From NCBI RefSeq assembly GCF_016863615.1, contig NZ_BOPF01000043.1, positions 1 through 64,000 on the forward strand: 64,000 nucleotides of DNA, in the 5' to 3' direction. The stretch comes from Virgisporangium aliadipatigenens (GTDB taxonomy: Bacteria; Actinomycetota; Actinomycetes; Mycobacteriales; Micromonosporaceae). How positions within the stretch are numbered: position 1 is the first letter of the stretch; every line of letters starts with the position of its first letter. The notes below the pieces were generated by a model, which searched no databases, was not told where the DNA came from, and saw nothing but the letters and a program-made list of their open reading frames with translations. This document shows positions 293 to 11,621 of this stretch, one piece after another. Both the position numbers and the translations under genes were made by a program.

Positions 293-979
293 TCAGTTGA
301 GGGACGGATCCGCCGGGAAGTGCGCCACCGCGGCCAGCAGCCCGCCCTGCCGGCGCAGCACCATCGGCCACAGGTCGTCCGGCCGCCCCGCGAACGGGTC
401 CCCCGGCAGCGCGTCGAACACGAACCACGAGCCGGTCTCGATCTCGTTCTCGAGCTGCCCGGGCGACCAGCCGGCGTAGCCCGCGAAGACCCGGACCCCG
501 AGCACTCCGGCCCGCAGCGCCTCCGGGTCCGTGGAGAGGTCCACCGTCCCGAGCACTCCCGAGACGCGGTTGAACCCGTCCAGCTCGGCCGTATTGGGCC
601 GGGCGCGCGCCAGGCAGATGGCCGCCTCGGGCTGCACCGGGCCGCCCTCGAAGACAACGGCGGGGTCGTCGGCGAGGGTGCCCCACGGGCCGAGCACCTC
701 GGCGACCGGCACCTCGGTGGCGCGGTTGAGCACGACGCCCAGCGCGCCGCCCTCCTCGTGCGCGACGAGCAGCACGACGGTGCGTTCGAAGTTGGGGTCG
801 CGCAGCGACGGGGTGGCGACCAGCAGCCGGCCGGTCAGCGACTCGGTCGAACGCCCCTTCGACGCCCCCGGCCAGCCGGGACCGCCACCGCTGCTGAGCC
901 CGCCGGGCCCCGAACCGCCCGAGCCCGCGCCTCCGGCGCCGCCCGCGGCGTCCGCGGGGCCTCCCTGACCTGGCTGCAC
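293..979 (-). CDS. YqgE/AlgH family protein (UPF0301)
   Basis: This 228-residue product has the YqgE/AlgH fold from about residue 48 onward: the opening TGRLLVATPSLRDPNFERTV, then VVLLVAHEEGGALGVVLNR, and the later FAGYAGWSPGQLENEI segment are all characteristic. The first ~45 residues are a low-complexity Gly/Ala/Ser/Pro extension that most family members lack, so a non-ATG start further in is possible. The family is widespread in bacteria and its biochemical role is unresolved; AlgH was named from alginate regulation in Pseudomonas. It is followed on the same strand, upstream, by the VOC gene with a 6-bp gap, so the two are probably co-transcribed. Confidence 0.9.
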   Translation of the reverse strand: MQPGQGGPADAAGGAGGAGSGGSGPGGLSSGGGPGWPGASKGRSTESLTGRLLVATPSLRDPNFERTVVLLVAHEEGGALGVVLNRATEVPVAEVLGPWGTLADDPAVVFEGGPVQPEAAICLARARPNTAELDGFNRVSGVLGTVDLSTDPEALRAGVLGVRVFAGYAGWSPGQLENEIETGSWFVFDALPGDPFAGRPDDLWPMVLRRQGGLLAAVAHFPADPSLN

Positions 980-985
980 GGCGCC

Positions 986-1339
986 CTACCCGGCCACGCA
1001 GAACTCGTTGCCCTCGGGATCCGCCAGAACGGTCCAGGACAGGCCCGGCATGGTTTCCTCGCCGACTACCGTGGCGCCTAGTTTCTTCAGCCGTTCGATC
1101 TCCGCCGGGCGGTCGTCACTGGTCCAGTCGATGTGCACCCGGTTCTTCGCCACCCGCGGCTCGGGAACCTTCTGCAGGCCGATCGCGATGCCCTCCCCTT
1201 CGGCCGGGCTGAGCATGACGAAGAAGGACCAGTCGCCGTCGACCTTGTAGCCGGCGGCCTCGGTCCAGAATCTGGCCAGCGCCTGCGGGTCCGCGCAGTC
1301 GATCGTGACCATCTTGGGTGTCAACGCCATGCCACGCAC
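986..1339 (-). CDS. VOC (glyoxalase-like) family protein
   Basis: A 117-residue single-domain protein of the vicinal oxygen chelate superfamily. The segment TIDCADPQALARFW near the N-terminus and VLADPEGNEFCV at the C-terminus are the typical beginning and end of the glyoxalase-like betaalphabetabetabeta unit, and RVHIDW supplies a plausible metal-ligand His. Substrate cannot be inferred; many such small actinobacterial members are of unknown function. A second ATG three codons in (MALTPKM) is an equally good start. It lies immediately upstream of the YqgE-like gene on the same strand. Confidence 0.85.
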   Translation of the reverse strand: MRGMALTPKMVTIDCADPQALARFWTEAAGYKVDGDWSFFVMLSPAEGEGIAIGLQKVPEPRVAKNRVHIDWTSDDRPAEIERLKKLGATVVGEETMPGLSWTVLADPEGNEFCVAG

Positions 1340-1376
1340 ATTAGCCTGGCCCCCGCTCCACGGTTAGCCTCTGCGG

Positions 1377-2189
1377 GTGGACATCGCAGCGACTGCTGAC
1401 ATTGCCGTGATCGGCGGCTCGGGTCTGTACTCCTTGTTGCCCGACGCCACTGAAATTCGGGTCGATACGCCGTACGGGCCGCCGTCGGATGCCGTGACGG
1501 TGGCGACCGTCGGCGATCGGCGGGTGGCGTTCCTCCCGCGGCACGGGAAGGATCACCGGTTCCCGCCGCACCGGATCCCCTATCGGGCGAACCTGTGGGC
1601 GTTACGCGCGCTCGGCGTGCGGCAGATCCTGGCGCCGTGCGCGGTCGGCGGGCTGCTGCCTGAGCTGGGGCCGGGGTCGTTCGTGGTGCCGGATCAGCTG
1701 ATCGACCGCACAAGTGGGCGGGTGCAGACGTTCTACGACAGCGGCGCGGTGCACGTGAACTTCGCCGACCCGTACTGCCCCACCGGCCGGCGCACCATCC
1801 TGGCGGCGGCCGACGGCAACGGGATCGCGGCCACCGACGGCGGCACCATGGTGGTCGTCGAGGGGCCGCGGTTCTCGACCCGGGCGGAGTCGCGGGCGTA
1901 CACGGCGATGGGCGGCACGATCATCAACATGACCGGCCATCCGGAGGCCGTTCTGGCGCGGGAGCTGGCCCTGTGTTACTCGGCCGTGGCGCTGGTGACG
2001 GATCTGGACGCCGGCGTGGAGGGCGATCACGGCGTCACCATGGAGGAGGTGTTCCGCGTCTTCGGGGAGAACACCGACCGGCTGCGCGGGGTGCTCCTGG
2101 ACGCGGTGAAGGCGTTGCCGGGCGAGCGTTCGTGCGGCTGCGGGGACGCGCTGGCCGGGATCGACGTGCCGGAGCTGCCTACGTCGTAG
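1377..2189 (+). CDS. mtnP: S-methyl-5'-thioadenosine phosphorylase (MTAP/PNP family)
   Basis: The 270-residue product belongs to the trimeric purine nucleoside phosphorylase family. Phosphate-binding motifs are visible at IGGSGLYSL (residues ~12-20) and FLPRHGKDH (~51-59), ribose/base contacts at INMTGHPEAVLARE, and the Asp pair in VTDLDAGVE, which in MTAP contacts the adenine base. These favour methylthioadenosine cleavage in the methionine salvage pathway, though NMTGHPEA also resembles the methylthioinosine-type branch, so base preference is uncertain. The start is GTG. The gene converges on the histidine kinase gene with an 11-bp tail-to-tail overlap. Confidence 0.88.
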   Translation: MDIAATADIAVIGGSGLYSLLPDATEIRVDTPYGPPSDAVTVATVGDRRVAFLPRHGKDHRFPPHRIPYRANLWALRALGVRQILAPCAVGGLLPELGPGSFVVPDQLIDRTSGRVQTFYDSGAVHVNFADPYCPTGRRTILAAADGNGIAATDGGTMVVVEGPRFSTRAESRAYTAMGGTIINMTGHPEAVLARELALCYSAVALVTDLDAGVEGDHGVTMEEVFRVFGENTDRLRGVLLDAVKALPGERSCGCGDALAGIDVPELPTS

Positions 2190-3192
2190 CGGGCAGGTGC
2201 ACCTCGAAGCGGCAGCCGTCGTCGGTGTTGGCGACGGAGACCGTGCCGCGGTGCGCCTCGACGAGGCCTCGGACGATCGCGAGGCCGAGGCCTCCCCCGC
2301 TGTCCGCCGGGGTCCGTGCTGTCGTTCCGCGGAACGCCACGTCGAACACGCGCGGCAGGTCTGCCTCGGGTATGCCGCCGCACCCGTCGCTGACGGCCAT
2401 CCAGCCGGTGGCGCCCGATCCGGTGAGCCCGCCGGAGATGACGACGGTGCCGTCGCCCGGGGTGTGCCGAACGGCGTTGCGCACCAGGTTCGCCACGACG
2501 CGGGACAGCTCCGGCTCGGAACCGAGCACCACCGGCCAGCCGCCCGGAGCGGCCACGACGCGCACTCCCCGGGCGGCGGCGATCGGTGCGGCCGAGGCGA
2601 CCGCGTCGGAGACGACGTCCCCGAGCGCGACGGCGTGCGTGGTGAGGCGCAGCGCGCCGGCGTTGATCCGGGACAGTTCGAACAGGTCGTCGACGAGCCC
2701 GGCCATGCGATCGGCCTCGACGCGCAGCCGCCGGTGGTATTCGCCCACGGTGGCCTCGTCGGCGACGACGCCGTCCTCCAGTGCCTCGGCCATGGCGCGC
2801 ATGCCGGCCAGCGGCGTGCGGAGGTCGTGCGACACCCACGCCACGAGTTCGCGCCGGCTCGCTTCGAGCCGGCGTTCGCGTTCCCTCGCCTCGGCGGCCC
2901 ACATGGCGGCGGCGGCGAGCCGCCGGGTGGCCGGGAGCGCGACGGCGAACGACACCACCGCGGCGGCCGACACGACGACGAACAGCACCTGCAGGTCGTG
3001 CTCGGAGATGAACATCCGCATCGACGCGGCGACGATCCCGGCGAGCACCGCGAGGATCGCCACGGCGAGCAGAACGGCGATGTGCGCAGCGATCGCCGCC
3101 GCCCGCATGAGCCGCAGCAGCAACAGCCCGGGCAGCGCCACGGCGAGCGACCCGCTCAGCGCGATGACGAACGTGTAGGCGACGTCAGCCAT
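2179..3192 (-). CDS. Two-component sensor histidine kinase
   Basis: A 337-residue membrane kinase with three hydrophobic segments in the first ~90 residues and little extracytoplasmic sequence, suggesting an intramembrane sensor. The HisKA motif SHDLRTPLAGM (His ~123) is followed by the N box NLVRNAVRHTP, the G1 box DGCGGIP and the G2 box GGGLGLAIV, so all catalytic elements are present. It overlaps the preceding response regulator gene by 8 bp, making them a translationally coupled pair. The stimulus is unknown. Confidence 0.93.
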   Translation of the reverse strand: MADVAYTFVIALSGSLAVALPGLLLLRLMRAAAIAAHIAVLLAVAILAVLAGIVAASMRMFISEHDLQVLFVVVSAAAVVSFAVALPATRRLAAAAMWAAEARERERRLEASRRELVAWVSHDLRTPLAGMRAMAEALEDGVVADEATVGEYHRRLRVEADRMAGLVDDLFELSRINAGALRLTTHAVALGDVVSDAVASAAPIAAARGVRVVAAPGGWPVVLGSEPELSRVVANLVRNAVRHTPGDGTVVISGGLTGSGATGWMAVSDGCGGIPEADLPRVFDVAFRGTTARTPADSGGGLGLAIVRGLVEAHRGTVSVANTDDGCRFEVHLPATT

Positions 3193-3877
3193 CGGTGCCG
3201 GTCTCGTAGCGGTAGCCGACGCCCCACACGGTGACGATGCGGCGCGGCTGCGCGGGATCCGCCTCGACCTTCTCCCGCAACCGTCTCATGTGGACGGTCA
3301 CAGTGGACTGGTCGCCGAACGTCCAGCCCCACACGGCATCCAGCAGCTCCGCGCGGCGGAAAGCCTTGCCGGGACGGCGCATCAGGAACGTCAACAGGTC
3401 GAACTCGCGCACCGTCAGGGCGAGCACGGCACCGCGCAACTTCGCTTCCCGCCGTCCCACGTCGACGGTGAGCGCCCCGTCGGTGAGCAGGCCGCTGTCC
3501 GGCGAAACCGTGGTGGTGCGGCGCAGCACGGACTGCACACGCAGCACCAGTTCCCGGGGAGAGAACGGCTTGGTGACGTAGTCGTCGGCACCGATCTCCA
3601 GTCCGAGCACCCGGTCGGCCTCTTCGCCGAGCGCGGTGAGCATCACGACCGGAACGTCGCTACGGGCGGCCCGCATCCGCCGGCACACCTCGAGCCCGTC
3701 GATGCCGGGCAGCATCAGGTCGAGCACGACAAGGTCCGGCCGCCCGGTCTCGAACGCCCGCAGCGCCGACACGCCGTCGCCGGCGAGGTGGACGTCGAGC
3801 CCCGCGCGTTCGAGATATCGCCGGACGACGTCGCTCACGGTCGGGTCGTCGTCGACGACCAGCACACTCTGCCCCAC
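3185..3877 (-). CDS. OmpR/PhoB-family response regulator
   Basis: 230 residues with an N-terminal receiver domain (acidic triad in VVDDDP, phospho-acceptor Asp in LVVLDLMLPG, conserved Lys in YVTKPFSPREL) and a C-terminal winged-helix domain ending VTVHMRRLREK...TVWGVGYRYE. The start is GTG. It is the first gene of the pair with the histidine kinase and presumably its phosphorylation partner. Target genes are unknown; the adjacent secreted-protein gene on the same strand is one candidate. Confidence 0.94.
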   Translation of the reverse strand: MGQSVLVVDDDPTVSDVVRRYLERAGLDVHLAGDGVSALRAFETGRPDLVVLDLMLPGIDGLEVCRRMRAARSDVPVVMLTALGEEADRVLGLEIGADDYVTKPFSPRELVLRVQSVLRRTTTVSPDSGLLTDGALTVDVGRREAKLRGAVLALTVREFDLLTFLMRRPGKAFRRAELLDAVWGWTFGDQSTVTVHMRRLREKVEADPAQPRRIVTVWGVGYRYETGTDG

Positions 3878-5883: not shown

Positions 5884-6371
5884 CGACGTTCGATCCCTGC
5901 GCCGGTCGCCGCGCGCTGCTCGCGGTGGGCGCCGCCGCCGCCCTCGGTGGCTGTTCCGTCTACGGGGGAACATCCACCGACGAGCCCCCACCGGACGGCG
6001 TGGACGCCGCCTCTCCCCCGCCGCCGTCCGGCGGGTCCCCGGCCGGCACACCACCCGCCTCGGGTGCCCCGCCCGCGGGCGGCCCGGCACCGCTGGCCCG
6101 CACCGCCGACATCCCGGTCAACGGCGGCAAGATCTTCAAGGAACAGGGCGTCGTGGTGACCCAGCCGACGGCCGGGACGTTCAAGGCGTTCTCGGCGACC
6201 TGCACCCATCAGGGCTGCACGGTGACGTCGATCCAGGGCGGCACGATCGTGTGCGGCTGCCACGGCAGCAAGTTCGCCCTGGCGGACGGCGCGGTCAAGG
6301 CCGGCCCGGCCACCAAGCCCCTACCCCCCAAGCGCCTGAACGTCACCGGCGACGCCATCACGCTCGCCTGA
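5880..6371 (+). CDS. Rieske [2Fe-2S] lipoprotein
   Basis: 163 residues starting at GTG within a GTGA overlap. A short N-terminus (C..RRALLAVGAAAALGGC) carries an RR pair and a lipobox with the acylated Cys near residue 24, then a ~45-residue Pro/Gly/Ser linker. The Rieske cluster ligands and disulfide cysteines are complete: CTHQGC and, 17 residues on, CGCHGS. It is therefore a surface-exposed electron carrier tethered to the membrane. With the preceding membrane protein it could form an electron-transfer chain outside the bc1 complex; donor and acceptor are unknown. It converges on the methyltransferase gene with a 3-bp gap. Confidence 0.92.
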   Translation: MTTFDPCAGRRALLAVGAAAALGGCSVYGGTSTDEPPPDGVDAASPPPPSGGSPAGTPPASGAPPAGGPAPLARTADIPVNGGKIFKEQGVVVTQPTAGTFKAFSATCTHQGCTVTSIQGGTIVCGCHGSKFALADGAVKAGPATKPLPPKRLNVTGDAITLA

Positions 6372-6374
6372 GGC

Positions 6375-7202
6375 CTACCAGCGGTCCTGCTGTGCGCGCG
6401 CCTCGTACAGCAGGACCGACGCCGACACGCTGACGTTGAGCGAGTCGGCCCGTCCGAGCATCGGCACGAACACCCGCCCGAACCCGTGCGCGTACCACGC
6501 CTTGGAGATCCCGTACCGTTCGCTCCCCACGACGAACGCCACCCGGCCCCGGTAGTCCACCTCGCGGTAGTTGCGCGCGTCGTCGGTGTCCGCGAGGTAC
6601 ACCGAGAACCCGTTCCGCTTGAGCCAGATGGCCGCGTCCTCGACCTCGTCGAACTCCACCGACGGCATGGTCAGGCACATTCCCTGACTCCCCTTGAAGA
6701 CCTTCGGATGGGTCAGCCGGGTGCGCCGGTTCGTCATGACGAGACAGTCCGCGCCGGCGGCGTCCATGCTGCGCAGCAGGGTGCCGAGGTTCCCCGGAAT
6801 CTCCACCGCGTCGGCGACCAGCACCAGCGCGCTGTCCCCGAAGCTCAGCTCGTCGCGATCCCACGCCGGCAACTGCGCGATGGAGACCATCCCGTCCGGC
6901 CGCTCCCGCTCGCAGATCCGCTCCATCGTCTTCGGCGACACCCGGTAGGCCCGATAGGCCCGCGCCGCGATCTCCGAACTCCGCTTCCGCGCCTCGTCGG
7001 AGTAGATCGCCTCCGGACACCAGAAGAAGCACTCCACCGGAGCACCCGTCTCCAGCAGCAGGTTGTGCGCCCACAGCCCCTCAGCCACGAACAGCTTGTG
7101 CCGGTTGGGCGCCGTATTGCGCTGAATGTCCAGCACCTGCTTCACCCGAGGGTGCGAGAGACCGATCTGCTGCAGGTCAAGTTGCGGTTCCACGAAGACC
7201 AT
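6375..7202 (-). CDS. SpoU/TrmH-family RNA 2'-O-methyltransferase
   Basis: 275 residues with an N-terminal substrate-binding part (HPRVKQVLDIQ...FVAEG) and a C-terminal SPOUT domain. All three knot motifs are visible: IPGNLGTLLRSMDAAGAD (motif 1), FVVGSERYGIS (motif 2) and VPMLGRADSLNVSVSASVLL (motif 3), so SAM binding should be intact. It presumably methylates a ribose in rRNA or tRNA; the exact nucleotide cannot be told from sequence. It lies 197 bp downstream of tmRNA on the same strand. Confidence 0.93.
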   Translation of the reverse strand: MVFVEPQLDLQQIGLSHPRVKQVLDIQRNTAPNRHKLFVAEGLWAHNLLLETGAPVECFFWCPEAIYSDEARKRSSEIAARAYRAYRVSPKTMERICERERPDGMVSIAQLPAWDRDELSFGDSALVLVADAVEIPGNLGTLLRSMDAAGADCLVMTNRRTRLTHPKVFKGSQGMCLTMPSVEFDEVEDAAIWLKRNGFSVYLADTDDARNYREVDYRGRVAFVVGSERYGISKAWYAHGFGRVFVPMLGRADSLNVSVSASVLLYEARAQQDRW

Positions 7203-7317
7203 CCTGCCGCCAGCGAAAACCCGGACGAACAGCGCCTACCGATGGGGTGCAGGGGCAGCGCCCCGCCGCCGGCGAAGCCCGGCCCAACGGGGGTGCGGGT
7301 GGCGAAGCCCCCGCCTC

Positions 7318-7336
7318 GCGCGGACGAAGTCCGCGC
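7318..7336. repeat. Perfect short hairpin in a GC-rich intergenic repeat region
   Basis: Arms GCGCGGAC and GTCCGCGC flank a GAA loop. It is one of several GAA/CAG-loop hairpins between 7236 and 7340 (others around 7249-7262 and 7301-7315). This resembles the dispersed GC-rich intergenic palindromes of actinomycete chromosomes and lies between ssrA and the methyltransferase gene. Confidence 0.5.
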
Positions 7337-7347
7337 ACAAATACCGA

Positions 7348-7386
7348 GGAGCCCCAGGTCCGCGCACTCCGCGGACATGAGGCTCC
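7348..7386 (-). terminator. Terminator of ssrA
   Basis: Outer arms GGAGCC/GGCTCC (7348-7353, 7381-7386) and inner arms GTCCGCG/CGCGGAC (7358-7364, 7370-7376) form a two-part stem 12 bases beyond the tmRNA 3' end on the minus strand. There is no long U tract, as is usual in this group. Confidence 0.6.
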
Positions 7387-7398
7387 CAGGCGACTCGA

Positions 7399-7769
7399 TG
7401 GAGGTGCCGGGAATCGAACCCGGGTCCTTCGCCGCTTTGTCAGGGCTTCTCCGAGCGCAGCTCACTGTGCCTCTACTCGGCCCCTCCGATCACGTGAGCG
7501 AGTCGGTGTGGCGGGCCCAGTTGCATTTAAATCTCGCCGCCCCGGCCCCGCAACGGGTCCGGATTGGCCAGCCTTCTAGCTGATGCCGGTGACCGGGCCG
7601 AAGGCACTCCCGGACCGACAGATCTCAAACTCGCTTAGACAGCGAGAGCGAGATCAGAGCGCTTGTAGTTGGCGCTTATTGGTTTCCGACCACTGATTAA
7701 CGAGACAATGTCGGCTTCCTCGGCTCGCTTCCCCTGTCGCTACGAACAAAGTCGAAACCAGTCACCCCC
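7399..7769 (-). ncRNA. ssrA: Transfer-messenger RNA (tmRNA)
   Basis: The minus-strand 5' end GGGGGTGACTGGTTTCGACTT and the 3' end GGTTCGATTCCCGGCACCTCCA are the hallmark tRNA-like ends; they pair as a 7-bp acceptor (GGGGGTG with CACCTCC). CCA is not encoded. The likely tag reading frame runs from 7673 down to the TAA at 7635 and gives (A)ANYKRSDLALAV, ending in Val rather than the usual ALAA. tmRNA with SmpB rescues stalled ribosomes; smpB is encoded 2.1 kb upstream on the same strand. Confidence 0.97.
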
Positions 7770-7818
7770 TGGATGTTGAACCAAGACCGTACCAGTCTAG
7801 CTCGCCGGCGGCATCCCG

Positions 7819-9114
7819 TTAGATCCCGCCGCAGGCCTGGCCGTTGACGGTGCACGCGGTCGGCTTGCCCACCCCGTCGGCCTCGTAGGTGAACAGCGCG
7901 GTGCGTCCGGGGCCGACGAGGCGGGTGTCGGGCGACGGCGTGAAGACGAACCGGTCGCCGTCCTGCTTCATCTGCGCCCCGGCCGTCTTGCGGATGGTGA
8001 GGTTCAGGACGGGCAGGGTCAGCACGACGGTCCAGCCCTCGACGGGTTGCCCGCCGGGGTTGCTGATCGTGACGGCCCCGCGGTAGCCGCCGAGGCGCAC
8101 GGTCTCGGTGCGGTAGACGGCGGTCAGGTTGGGGCCCAGGTGCGCGCCGCCGGAGGCGGTCGGCAGGACGCCGGAGGGCTCGGCCGGCTGGCCGGACGCG
8201 GACCCGCCACGGGACGCGCCGGCGCTGGCCGGGGGACGGGTGCCGCCGGGCAGTTCGGCGTAGCCGTCGTGGCCCTGCCCGTTGCCCGGGCCGATCAGCG
8301 GGCTGCCCGGCGGGTAGGAGAGGGTGGCGGCCACGACGATCAGCGAGACGAGCGCGATCACCAGGAGCAGGCCGGCGCCGACCGCGACGTGCCGCCCCCG
8401 GGCGTCGGGCCGGATGCGCTGCGCCATCCGGGTGAGGGCGCCGCCGAGCGCGTGCAGCCGTCCGTCCCGGCGGTGCCCGCGCCTTCCGTGTGCGGGGGAA
8501 CGCCTGGCGAACGGCACGGTCCGTTCCAGATGCAACGGCCGGGTCACGGTGACCCGCCCGACGGCGCGCAACCGCCGCGCGAATCCGCCCCGCCGCTGGT
8601 ACGGCCGGGCGTTGCGGCGGCTGCCGGAGTGGTCGGCACCCTTGGTGCGCTGGGCCAGCCGCCGCGCGAGGGCCGCTCCTACCGGGCCGCGCTTGCCGTC
8701 CTCGACGGCCAACCGGTCGAGCGCCTCCGGCAACCGCCGGCCGAGCATCTCCGTGTAGGTGCGGTGCAGCACGCGCCGCCGCAGCAGCCCCTGCATGCCG
8801 AAGAACCCGCTCTGGCGCAGCGTGACGCGGCTGCCGCCGCCGACGCGGGCGATGGAGACGCTGACGCGGGCGTCGAGTTCGGGGGCACGCCACCGCATGG
8901 CGAGCCGCCGGGGTGCGTCGACCTCCAGCACCTCGGCGTCGATGGGCTCCTCGAACCCGGGCTGCCCCTTGGCCTCGACCCGGAACGTGTGCCCGACGAC
9001 CGGGCGCAGTTTGGCGGGCGCGAACCATCCGGCGAGCACGGCGGCGTCGGTGAGCGCGCGCCAGACCCGTTCGGGCGGATGCGCCACATCGACGTCGAGC
9101 CGGATTTCCGTCAC
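7819..9114 (-). CDS. SRPBCC domain - transmembrane - CBM2-like fusion protein
   Basis: 431 residues in three parts. Residues ~1-140 are an SRPBCC/AHSA1-type lipid-cavity domain (opening DVDVAHPPERVWRALTDAAV, with LAGWFAPA and a beta-rich core). A basic Arg-rich stretch (~145-235) leads to one membrane helix (~242-264). After a Gly/Pro/Ser linker, residues ~325-431 form a carbohydrate-binding module 2-like beta-sandwich with GWTVVLTLP and the terminal ACTVNGQAC. Topology would place SRPBCC in the cytosol and CBM2 outside. I know of no function for this pairing. The next gene upstream also ends in a CBM2-like domain. A shifted overlapping ORF on the same strand is a shadow. Confidence 0.85.
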   Translation of the reverse strand: MTEIRLDVDVAHPPERVWRALTDAAVLAGWFAPAKLRPVVGHTFRVEAKGQPGFEEPIDAEVLEVDAPRRLAMRWRAPELDARVSVSIARVGGGSRVTLRQSGFFGMQGLLRRRVLHRTYTEMLGRRLPEALDRLAVEDGKRGPVGAALARRLAQRTKGADHSGSRRNARPYQRRGGFARRLRAVGRVTVTRPLHLERTVPFARRSPAHGRRGHRRDGRLHALGGALTRMAQRIRPDARGRHVAVGAGLLLVIALVSLIVVAATLSYPPGSPLIGPGNGQGHDGYAELPGGTRPPASAGASRGGSASGQPAEPSGVLPTASGGAHLGPNLTAVYRTETVRLGGYRGAVTISNPGGQPVEGWTVVLTLPVLNLTIRKTAGAQMKQDGDRFVFTPSPDTRLVGPGRTALFTYEADGVGKPTACTVNGQACGGI

Positions 9115-9201
9115 GGTCCGACTATATTTCCGTCACGCAGCACACGACCGCCCACAATGTCCGGCTCCGGTGTGCGTTTCCTCGACTACTGACCGGTATT
9201 C

Positions 9202-9825
9202 CTACTGGCAGGGGACACCGTTGATGACACAGGAACGCGGCGTGGCGCTCGTGCGTTCCGGGCGGCTGACCGAGAGGGCGACGACGATCGTCGATCCGGC
9301 GGCGATCCGGCCGGAGAGGCGCACGCCGTCGTCGGTGCGGTCGGCGTCGACGTTCTGGTCGCCGCTGACCACCCACGCGCGGGTGACCCGGGACCCGGCC
9401 ACGAACTCCACGGCGGCCCTCCAGTCGACCGCCGCCGAACCGGCGTTCTTGACGGTGACCGTGCCGAAGTGCCCGCTGTTGAACTGCTGCGTGGTCGCGT
9501 ACTTCGCGGTGAGCTTCGGCGCGGCGGGGCTCGGCGAACGACTCGGCGACGGCGTCCGCGAACGGGAGGGGCTCGGCGTCGCCGACGCGCTGGGCGAGGC
9601 GGGCGCGCTCGACTCGGCCGGCTCCGTCGAGGGGCTGGACTCCTCGACGGCCGGCGGCCGCAGCGGCAGCCCGGCGTTTCGGGTGTCGCGGGAGTCGTTG
9701 TCGGTGAGCGTCAGCGCGACGAGGCTGGCGATCAGCGTGACGGCCACGCCGAGCACGATGGCGGTCCACCCGCTGATCGGCCGTGCCGCCGTATGCCGGA
9801 TAACCACCGCTGGCCGAACCACCAC
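9202..9825 (-). CDS. Membrane-anchored CBM2-like protein
   Basis: 207 residues: a short basic N-terminus, one membrane helix (~20-42), a Pro/Ser/Arg-rich linker (~65-100) and a ~105-residue beta-rich domain. The domain begins PKLTAKYATTQQFNSGHFG and ends SCVINGVPC, matching the ends of bacterial family-2 carbohydrate-binding modules, though the central Trp is shifted (VDWRAAVEFV). There is no catalytic domain, so it probably binds polysaccharide or cell wall at the surface. It sits 87 bp upstream of the SRPBCC-CBM2 gene and 39 bp downstream of smpB. Confidence 0.82.
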   Translation of the reverse strand: MVVRPAVVIRHTAARPISGWTAIVLGVAVTLIASLVALTLTDNDSRDTRNAGLPLRPPAVEESSPSTEPAESSAPASPSASATPSPSRSRTPSPSRSPSPAAPKLTAKYATTQQFNSGHFGTVTVKNAGSAAVDWRAAVEFVAGSRVTRAWVVSGDQNVDADRTDDGVRLSGRIAAGSTIVVALSVSRPERTSATPRSCVINGVPCQ

Positions 9826-9864
9826 CGCAGGGACGTTAGTTGAATCGTCCCAGTCTCGCGAGGG

Positions 9865-10341
9865 CTAGTCGCGACCTTTGTTGCGCCGGCCGGCAACTTT
9901 CGCGATCTCCCGGTCGGCATCGCGCTTGGCGAGGTCCTGCCGCTTGTCGTAGGTCTTCTTACCGCGGGCGAGCCCGATCTCGACCTTGGCCCAGCCGTCG
10001 GAGAAGTACAGCGCCAGCGGGATGAGCGTGACCCCACCCTCCTTGATCTTGCCGGCGAGACGGGCGATCTCCATCTTCTTGAGCAGCAGCTTGCGGGTGC
10101 GCCGCGGCTCGTGGTTGGTCCACGTGCCCTGCGTGTACTCCGGGATGTGCAGGTTGCGCAGGAACACCTCGCCGTACTGCACCTCGGCGAACGCGTCCAC
10201 GAGGTTGGCCCGGCCGGCCCGCAGCGACTTCACCTCGGTGCCGGTGAGCTGCATGCCGGCCTCGTACGTATCGAGGATCGCGTAGTCGTGGTAGGCCTTG
10301 CGGTTGGACGCGACGACCTTCCGACCCTTCTCGCGGGGCAT
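9865..10341 (-). CDS. smpB: SsrA-binding protein SmpB
   Basis: 158 residues, the normal length. The family signature is clear: [45 protein letters not shown], and the basic C-terminal tail [19 protein letters not shown] that enters the mRNA channel. It binds tmRNA, delivers it to stalled ribosomes and is essential for trans-translation. The ATG has an AGGAGG site, part of which lies in a hairpin (see the regulatory entry). The gene follows the M23 peptidase gene at 38 bp. Confidence 0.98.
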
Positions 10342-10370
10342 TGATCCTCCTGTGCTTGCGAAGGATCAAT
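10340..10370 (-). promoter_or_regulatory. Hairpin overlapping the smpB ribosome-binding site
   Basis: On the minus strand ATTGATCCT (10370-10362) can pair perfectly with AGGATCAAT (10348-10340) across a 13-base loop. The second arm contains the last AGG of the AGGAGG site and the AT of the smpB start codon. No T tract follows, so translational masking fits better than termination. Confidence 0.5.
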
Positions 10371-10379
10371 CCTATCCGT

Positions 10380-11621
10380 TCAGCACAGGCATCCCGGCAG
10401 CCATTTCTCCGGGTCGACCGGGCTGCCGCCGATGCGCACCTCGAAGTGCAGGTGCGGGCCGGTGGAGTTCCCCGTGCTACCCACCCGTCCGATCAGCTGG
10501 CCGCGCCGCACCTGCTGCCCGGCCTGGACGAGGATCGCGGACTGGTGGCCGTAGCAGGTCGCGATCCCCTTGCCCTGGTACTGGCCGTGGGCGATGCAGG
10601 TGTAGTTGCCGTAGCCGCCGCTCCAGCCGGCCTTGACCACCTGGCCGTCGGCGGCGGCGAGGATCGACTGGCCGCTGCCCGCGCCGATGTCCAGGCCGCT
10701 GTGCAGGATCCAGCTGTGGAACAGGGGATGGAACCGCATCCCGAAGCTGCTGGACTTGCGCCCGGCGACCGGCATCCCGAAGAAGCCGCCCCCCGAGGGG
10801 ACGGGCACCCGCGGGTCGCCGCTCGGCCGGTTCTCCGCGTCGCGCAGCTCCTGCTCGACCCGCGCGCTCTCCGCCTTCAGCTCCTCGACCTTGGCCAGGA
10901 CGGCTCCGCGCTCGGCGTTGGCCACGTCGAGGGCCGCCTGGCGCTGGTCCACGAGCTGCTGCACCCGGTCGCGGGCCCGGTTCGCCTCGTCGGCGGCGGC
11001 CTGGCTCCTGGTCAACGCGTCGCGGGCGGCGGACTCCGCCTCCTCGGCCCGCCGGTGCGCGGCGGCGGTGGCGGCCTGCTCCTGGCGCAGCACCGCGCGG
11101 GCGGCCACGAGCCCGTCGAGCACGCTCCTGCGGTGCGCGGCGACGTGGTCGAGGTAGCCCATGCGTTGGGCGAAGACCTCGGGCGACCCGGACGTGACGA
11201 TCGAGTCGAGCAGGAGCATGTCGCCGCCCTTGTAGGTGGTGGCGGCCAGCTTGCCGACCTCCTCCCGGGCGCGGGCCACGCCGGCCCCGGCCTCGACGTA
11301 CCTGCGGTCGGCGTCGTGCCGGACGGTGCGGGCCGCGTCGACCTGCCGGCCGGCCTCGCGGACGTTCACCTCGGCGGCGGCCACCCGGCCCTCGGCCTCG
11401 GCGACGGCGGACTGCGCCGCCGGCAGGCCCGCGACAGCGGCGGCGTAGTCGGCGGCCGCCTGCTGCGCGCGTTCGGTCGCCGCCTCCAGATGCGCCGAGG
11501 CCGCGTCGAGCTGCTTGTCGAGTCGCGCCTTGTCGTCGTTCGGATCGGCATTCGCGGGAACGGCCAGAGCCAGGCTCAGCAGCACAGCAACCAGGGAGAT
11601 GAACCTTCGGTACACGCCCAT
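10380..11621 (-). CDS. Secreted murein hydrolase/activator with M23 peptidase domain
   Basis: 413 residues: a Sec signal peptide (ending PANA-D at ~26), a long Ala/Glu/Arg-rich coiled coil (~28-250) and a C-terminal LytM/M23 domain (~285-410). Zn-ligand motifs are present: HSGLDIGAG (HxxxD) and GPHLHFEVR (HxH). The architecture matches EnvC/RipC-type proteins, which are activated by FtsEX; ftsX and ftsE lie directly upstream on the same strand, separated by a strong terminator. It probably cleaves peptidoglycan cross-links at division or growth sites. Confidence 0.92.
   Translation of the reverse strand: MGVYRRFISLVAVLLSLALAVPANADPNDDKARLDKQLDAASAHLEAATERAQQAAADYAAAVAGLPAAQSAVAEAEGRVAAAEVNVREAGRQVDAARTVRHDADRRYVEAGAGVARAREEVGKLAATTYKGGDMLLLDSIVTSGSPEVFAQRMGYLDHVAAHRRSVLDGLVAARAVLRQEQAATAAAHRRAEEAESAARDALTRSQAAADEANRARDRVQQLVDQRQAALDVANAERGAVLAKVEELKAESARVEQELRDAENRPSGDPRVPVPSGGGFFGMPVAGRKSSSFGMRFHPLFHSWILHSGLDIGAGSGQSILAAADGQVVKAGWSGGYGNYTCIAHGQYQGKGIATCYGHQSAILVQAGQQVRRGQLIGRVGSTGNSTGPHLHFEVRIGGSPVDPEKWLPGCLC

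Follow-up and report, generated by a model that had tools for sequence, protein, structure and literature searches.

The interval between smpB and ssrA of Virgisporangium aliadipatigenens, a soil actinobacterium of a genus that belongs to the Micromonosporaceae, encodes a protein with an SRPBCC domain at one end and a CBM2-fold domain at the other, joined by a single transmembrane (TM) helix, and beside it a second membrane-anchored CBM2 protein. This raises the question of what two such folds could do when joined through a membrane, and of whether the two neighbors act together. We analyzed the locus within a stretch of 64,000 nucleotides (contig NZ_BOPF01000043.1, positions 1 to 64,000; hereafter the window) and compared it with related genomes.

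Two proteins encoded between smpB and ssrA

The genes of the fusion protein (P0001) and of its companion (P0002) are read in the same direction, between ssrA and the gene that we take, by recognition, to be smpB (Table 1), with gaps of 39 bases from smpB to the companion, 87 from the companion to the fusion and 49 from the fusion to ssrA. No sigma-70-like promoter was found in 7300-10500. Terminator-like sites number five in this stretch, where 1.4 would be expected, and none lies on the - strand within the smpB-ssrA interval. Upstream of smpB are an M23 peptidase gene and genes that are presumably ftsX, ftsE and prfB, named by recognition only, and this company may point to an envelope function or may merely reflect ancient gene order. 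The tag that ARAGORN predicts for the tmRNA of the window (7399-7769), ANYKRSDLALAV, ends in LAV, and those predicted in two genomes of the same genus end in LAA.

Table 1. Features of the smpB-ssrA interval and its flanks, in coordinates of the window
Feature	Position	Strand	Basis
ssrA/tmRNA (flank)	7396..7769	-	Rfam RF00023, 148.1 bits; ARAGORN 7399-7769
Fusion gene, 431 aa, GTG start	7819..9114	-	ORF and orthologues
CBM2-fold domain, aa 328-431	7822..8133	-	Pfam; structural match to 6qfs_A
Pro/Gly/Ser/Ala-rich spacer, probably extracytoplasmic, aa 266-327	8134..8319	-	sequence; low pLDDT
Single TM helix, about aa 241-265	8320..8394	-	prediction and AlphaFold2 model
Basic stalk, aa 137-240	8395..8706	-	AlphaFold2 model; charge count
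SRPBCC (AHSA1-type) domain, aa 1-136	8707..9114	-	Pfam; AlphaFold2 pLDDT 90-98; 3q63_B
Companion gene, 207 aa, GTG start	9202..9825	-	ORF, Pfam, AlphaFold2
Companion CBM2 domain, aa 104-207	9205..9516	-	Pfam, AlphaFold2, fold match
Companion TM region, about aa 22-40	9706..9762	-	hydropathy; AlphaFold2 helix 22-36 at low confidence
smpB (flank)	9865..10341	-	SmpB match in 118/121 family genomes
M23 peptidase gene, upstream of smpB	10380..11621	-	Pfam PF01551, E 3e-33

From its N-terminus the fusion protein comprises an AHSA1-type SRPBCC domain, a basic stalk, one TM helix, a spacer and a CBM2-fold domain. The first of these matches AHSA1 (PF08327; E 1.1e-15, 58.4 bits against a cutoff of 22.1, aa 12-109) and Polyketide_cyc2 (E 6e-9) in Pfam, and the AlphaFold2 model, built from alignments of the window proteins with loci from a contig pattern scan, gives aa 1-140 block means of 90-98. 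Model and PDB comparison agree on a helix-grip fold with a long C-terminal helix (3q63_B, Z 21.2, rmsd 1.4, 131 aligned). Below the AHSA1-type proteins, the list of matches also includes plant PYL receptors and TcmN-type cyclases, with one domain occupying most of it, as in each of these fold searches. The C-terminal domain matches CBM_2 (PF00553; E 2.8e-8, 34.4 bits against 24, aa 333-428), has block means of 84-97 over aa 331-431 and resembles 6qfs_A, a variant of the Cex CBM2 (Z 14.3, rmsd 2.2, 101 aligned), with which Foldseek agrees; it ends in a C-x6-C motif. Confidence is low in the outer stalk, which is modeled as a helix to about aa 161, and in the spacers of both proteins. Because the stalk holds 28 Lys/Arg (and 6 Asp/Glu) in 104 residues and the spacer only 2 Lys/Arg in 62, the SRPBCC domain would be cytosolic and the CBM2 domain would lie outside, an orientation to which charge and composition point.

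The companion consists of a short N-terminal tail, a TM region, a Ser/Pro spacer and a CBM2 domain that Pfam recognizes at aa 106-206 (E 7.2e-12, 46 bits against 24) and that AlphaFold2 models with block means of 87-95 over aa 101-207. Its best PDB match, 6qfs_A (Z 11.1, rmsd 2.6, 96 aligned, 31% identity), is tied with unrelated beta-sandwiches, and thus the Pfam match decides its identity. Neither protein has a hydrolase domain in Pfam and NCBIfam profile searches; the sole hydrolase-named matches, to the NCBIfam exoglucanase CbhB (fusion E 0.096, 10.6 bits; companion E 3.1e-8, 32.1 bits; cutoff 1950), span profile positions 895-995 of 997, which is the CBM end. A match of the fusion protein to the Rv0910 type II toxin (NCBIfam NF047960) stays below its cutoff (16.5 bits vs 100). 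The sequence-only reading had described the two proteins in these terms, as an SRPBCC-TM-CBM2 fusion and a TM-linker-CBM2 neighbor, both lacking a hydrolase, and the domains, their order and the predicted CBM2 folds bear it out. A lone TM-CBM2 protein elsewhere in the same genome (L249, 1463-2083) carries the same C-x6-C motif.

The fusion does not appear to be an accident of chance or assembly, since the two same-genus genomes, which we take to be V. aurantiacum (NZ_BOPG01000003.1) and V. ochraceum (NZ_BOPH01000062.1), encode it as one uninterrupted frame in the corresponding position, with 57% and 56% identity to the window's copy, and since dN/dS between those two is 0.16-0.42. An overlapping same-strand frame of 443 aa (7697-9028) was rejected as the gene because the 431-aa frame has a GC3 of 0.90-1.00 in each segment and full-length relatives. 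We also rejected the possibility that the SRPBCC part is a separate gene, which would have undone the claimed fusion: unfused SRPBCC-TM frames were seen in just one genus, g31 (L083, L208, L210), where some of the tandem fusion genes appear to be frame-broken between TM helix and CBM2 domain, perhaps through sequencing error or decay, and where another locus (L209) holds intact fusions.

Distribution and descent

A search for SmpB in 121 genomes of the family gave a match in 118, and the stretch downstream of smpB was read in 72 genomes from 37 genera: that of the window, 11 fetched for their fusion matches and 60 spread over genera with extra ones from fusion-bearing genera, a sample tilted towards fusions that therefore yields no family-wide frequency. 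Genes of the two kinds occur in 44 of the 72 stretches, 17 of which hold companion and fusion, 14 the fusion only and 13 the companion only; 28 hold neither. An SRPBCC-TM gene is thus found in 31 and a companion TM-CBM2 gene in 30; the fusion is intact and in one frame in 30 genomes (13 of the 37 genera), and 22 genera have a CBM2-type gene in the interval. Where ssrA follows, empty intervals measure 52-308 bases, except for one of 758 bases that was scored empty (L207), and occupied ones 769-3723; in five loci (L188, L202, L218, L228, L229) no same-strand ssrA was found downstream of smpB and 4.5 kb was taken. Two fusions are present in 6/7 genomes of g17, the Catellatospora group. A second SmpB relative lies outside the window in the same genome (G000:C2:183395-183859, 68% identity), and many genomes of the family have two.

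The place between smpB and ssrA thus recurs and provides a ready marker for finding members of the family. The notion of a conserved pair fares less well: companion and fusion adjoin each other in the window, but the 13 companion-only and 14 fusion-only stretches argue that their pairing is not obligate. Moreover, the companion is absent from this place in both same-genus relatives, and none was seen in the 18-kb stretches around eight relocated fusions (L076, L078, L082, L084-L088). On the SmpB tree, which has many weak forks, presence and absence change at least 9 times, and the tree offers 3 independent pairs for a comparison of the two genes. Four relocated fusions belong to genomes without a fusion after smpB (G005, G008, G012 and G033), and in G005, G012 and G033 the smpB-ssrA interval is empty.

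The search for further SRPBCC-CBM2 architectures that the sequence-only reading had proposed found them in these relatives, and so far the fusion family has been seen only in the Micromonosporaceae. In a class-level scan of 197 genomes, three of them from the family, 0/194 genomes outside it had a single frame with both parts at E 1e-7; at most 8 first-look candidates were scored per genome, so that a weak fusion could be missed (the other genome searches scored at most 14 or 28). A contig scan gave at least 69 loci, a set that is not exhaustive because the pattern was narrow, and both domains share a frame in 10/69; by their record titles, these 10 come from genera that we take to be Micromonosporaceae, an assignment looked up for Virgisporangium. 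Literature searches turned up no paper on an SRPBCC-CBM2 protein among the matches listed.

A tree of 90 CBM2 domains, built on few columns and with many uncertain branchings, groups companions with the fusions, relocated ones included, apart from the canonical CBM2 domains and those joined to kinases (support 98/88). In the SRPBCC tree fusions and soluble proteins separate with modest support (SH-aLRT 89, by a quick method) and with two exceptions, one cut by a contig end and the other on a long branch; domains shorter than 85 residues were omitted there, as were named loci that have a TM helix, and one protein counted as soluble (L111) is cut by a contig end. These sequence trees are consistent with, though they do not prove, one origin of the fusion. 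Two TM-CBM2 genes that nest among the fusions may be former fusions whose SRPBCC part was lost.

Nei-Gojobori counts over five segments give dN/dS below 1 throughout, lowest for the SRPBCC domain and the TM helix. Between V. ochraceum and V. aurantiacum the values are 0.18 for the SRPBCC domain, 0.22 for the stalk, 0.16 for the TM helix, 0.42 for the spacer and 0.33 for the CBM2 domain; between the window and each of these relatives they are 0.27-0.30, 0.60-0.67, 0.39-0.44, 0.74-0.79 and 0.76-0.77 in the same order. As the window-based value of the stalk comes close to those of spacer and CBM2 domain, the contrast between inside and outside is clear only for the SRPBCC domain and the TM helix, and the higher rate on the outer side may simply reflect a weaker constraint there.

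The aromatic face of the CBM2 domains

The canonical cellulose-binding face is presumably formed by three exposed aromatics, W17, W54 and W72 of Cex. Taking 1exg and eight canonical CBM2 domains of the same genome as reference, we find all three sites aromatic in 9/9 canonical domains. Among 37 syntenic fusions no site is aromatic in 29, one in a single copy and two in 7, six of which are the first fusion of the Catellatospora group; the 8 relocated fusions have no aromatic site in six cases, one in one and two in one. Companions keep two sites in 26/32, one in 3/32 and none in 3/32, and in the window the fusion has 0/3 and the companion 2/3 (Phe and Trp). Three TM-less frames (one in L083, two in L210) were omitted from these rows, and among the 32 companions those of L077 (at 1898) and L221 (at 1742) are the two that fall within the fusion clade. 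The core Trp (Trp361 in the window's fusion) is present in 37/37 syntenic fusions, 8/8 relocated ones and 27/32 companions. The C-terminal C-x6-C motif is found in 36/37, 8/8 and 27/32, the companion of the window included, and in 0/9 canonical domains.

Thus, the fusions have kept the CBM2 fold and not its cellulose face. Judged by sequence, the fusion is unlikely to bind cellulose, given that the three canonical aromatics are lost in 29/37 copies, including the window's, which has none of the three that mark a cellulose-binding CBM2a; to this extent the term carbohydrate-binding, which the sequence-only reading had used for the external domain, is weakened. Canonical domains with three aromatics, companions with mostly two and fusions with mostly none form a natural series along which one can follow how a sugar-binding fold turns to another use. 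CBM2 domains that bind copper are described in PMC12703677.

It is conceivable, if rather unlikely in our estimation, that the CBM2 fold serves protein-protein contact in the envelope, in the manner of an Ig-like beta-sandwich, and has no glycan role at all. The lost aromatic face of syntenic and relocated fusions alike fits such a use, as does the Cys pattern of 36/37 syntenic and 8/8 relocated copies, which lack an N-terminal Cys and have the C-x6-C motif, but two aromatics are kept in 7/37 fusions and in most companions, and glycans other than cellulose can be bound without an aromatic strip.

Proposed working and related systems

Anti-sigma factors of the RsgI type in Clostridium thermocellum are described in PMC12203970 as having an N-terminal cytosolic domain, one TM helix and a C-terminal extracellular sensor that can be a CBM (CBM3, CBM42). 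The fusion resembles RsgI, as portrayed there, in its cytosolic domain, TM helix and outer sensor-type domain, but differs in that its cytosolic part is an SRPBCC and not an anti-sigma domain, that its CBM2 has lost the canonical face, and that neither an autocleaving periplasmic domain nor an adjoining sigma-factor gene was recognized. No anti-sigma family appears among the Pfam hits, taken up to an E value of 1, and no sigma-factor gene was recognized near the fusion, where some of the neighbors were profile-scanned. Closer at hand, two proteins of the same genome (L246, 571-2202; L247, 707-2488) combine a kinase (PF00069) with a CBM2 (PF00553), both over cutoff, and share with the fusion a cytosolic signaling domain, a TM helix and an outer CBM2. 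They carry a kinase in place of the SRPBCC, and their CBM2 domains group with canonical ones and not with the smpB-ssrA lineage, which suggests that CBM2 ectodomains on cytosolic signaling domains arose more than once. On inspection these two CBM2 domains have no Trp at the binding sites. A further kinase-TM-CBM2 gene lies just past ssrA in L071 (2794-4425).

AHSA1-type proteins (PF08327) such as MLL2253, the protein of 3q63, share fold and family with the N-terminal domain of the fusion but are free-standing, whereas in the fusion a TM helix and an outer domain are attached to it. Both C-terminal domains, of fusion and companion, share their fold and core with the CBM2a of Cex from Cellulomonas fimi (1exg, 6qfs), yet that module sits on a secreted enzyme rather than a membrane protein, and in the fusion the equivalents of its W17, W54 and W72 are absent and the Cys pattern is changed. 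The fusion adds SRPBCC, a START-like fold, to the kinds of cytosolic domain that are paired with outer CBM domains, in an actinobacterial family of antibiotic producers.

The layout equal to that of RsgI and the two kinase-CBM2 proteins of the same genome lead us to read the fusion as a receptor or tether, and it looks like a cell-surface sensor or tether. We propose tentatively, and with somewhat less than even confidence, that it is a single-pass, N-in receptor-like protein in which a repurposed CBM2 ectodomain is coupled to a cytosolic SRPBCC domain. The support is that of a best explanation: the folds, the charge, dN/dS below 1, recurrence in 13/37 genera and elsewhere, and loss of the aromatics with the core Trp kept; from these we infer topology, coupling, and outer and inner ligands. 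The ectodomain would contact some component of the cell's own envelope, whether peptidoglycan, a protein or a polysaccharide at the surface. This contact would be coupled to the SRPBCC domain, whose own partner may be a protein or a small hydrophobic ligand. With two of three aromatic sites kept, the companion could simply bind glycans from its membrane anchor and assist wherever it is present. An intracellular lipid or ligand output of the SRPBCC domain, as the sequence-only reading had suggested, is plausible on the modeled fold. We consider it unlikely that the START-like pocket serves as the cytosolic part of a sensor for the envelope in which outer contact gates the binding or release of a hydrophobic molecule and the CBM fold reads the cell's own wall; if true, this would define a bacterial receptor family with a START-like domain in place of a kinase, cyclase or anti-sigma domain.

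It is likewise doubtful that the protein is a tether and not a sensor, its outer domain and spacer holding it in the wall while the membrane-held SRPBCC domain transports or keeps a hydrophobic molecule, such as a lipid, on the cytosolic face of the membrane. Eukaryotes offer a parallel in StARD3 and Aster/Lam, START-like proteins that are anchored in membranes, and a single TM helix beside a START-like fold, the ranking of the SRPBCC matches, and the SRPBCC domain as the most conserved part measured from the window accord with it. To our knowledge, however, AHSA1-type proteins have not been established as lipid carriers, and a separately folded ectodomain exceeds what an anchor requires.

That the genes are passengers with a minor surface role at a tolerated site, as empty stretches, repeated changes of presence on the weakly forked SmpB tree, and their appearance, duplication and relocation might suggest, is very improbable given dN/dS below 1 in each segment, one CBM2 group kept in 22/37 genera, and fusions elsewhere in the three empty-interval genomes G005, G012 and G033. 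With respect to the receptor-like reading, no signaling gene is consistently linked to the fusion: the smpB-ssrA neighbors are housekeeping genes, and those of relocated copies were set aside as a guide to function because they vary between places. One place is common to L084, L100, L101 and L110 and in part to L082, and the remaining relocated fusions sit elsewhere. The common place has a 170-aa protein without a Pfam or NCBIfam match, a weak HhH-GPD-like match (22.3 bits vs 136.5) and, in the first four, a convergent gene that is a NamZ exo-muramidase in L084, where alone it was profile-scanned. The relocated fusion of L086 has beside it a gene (5941-8019) whose product combines a TIR domain with WD40 repeats and is predicted to have TM helices.
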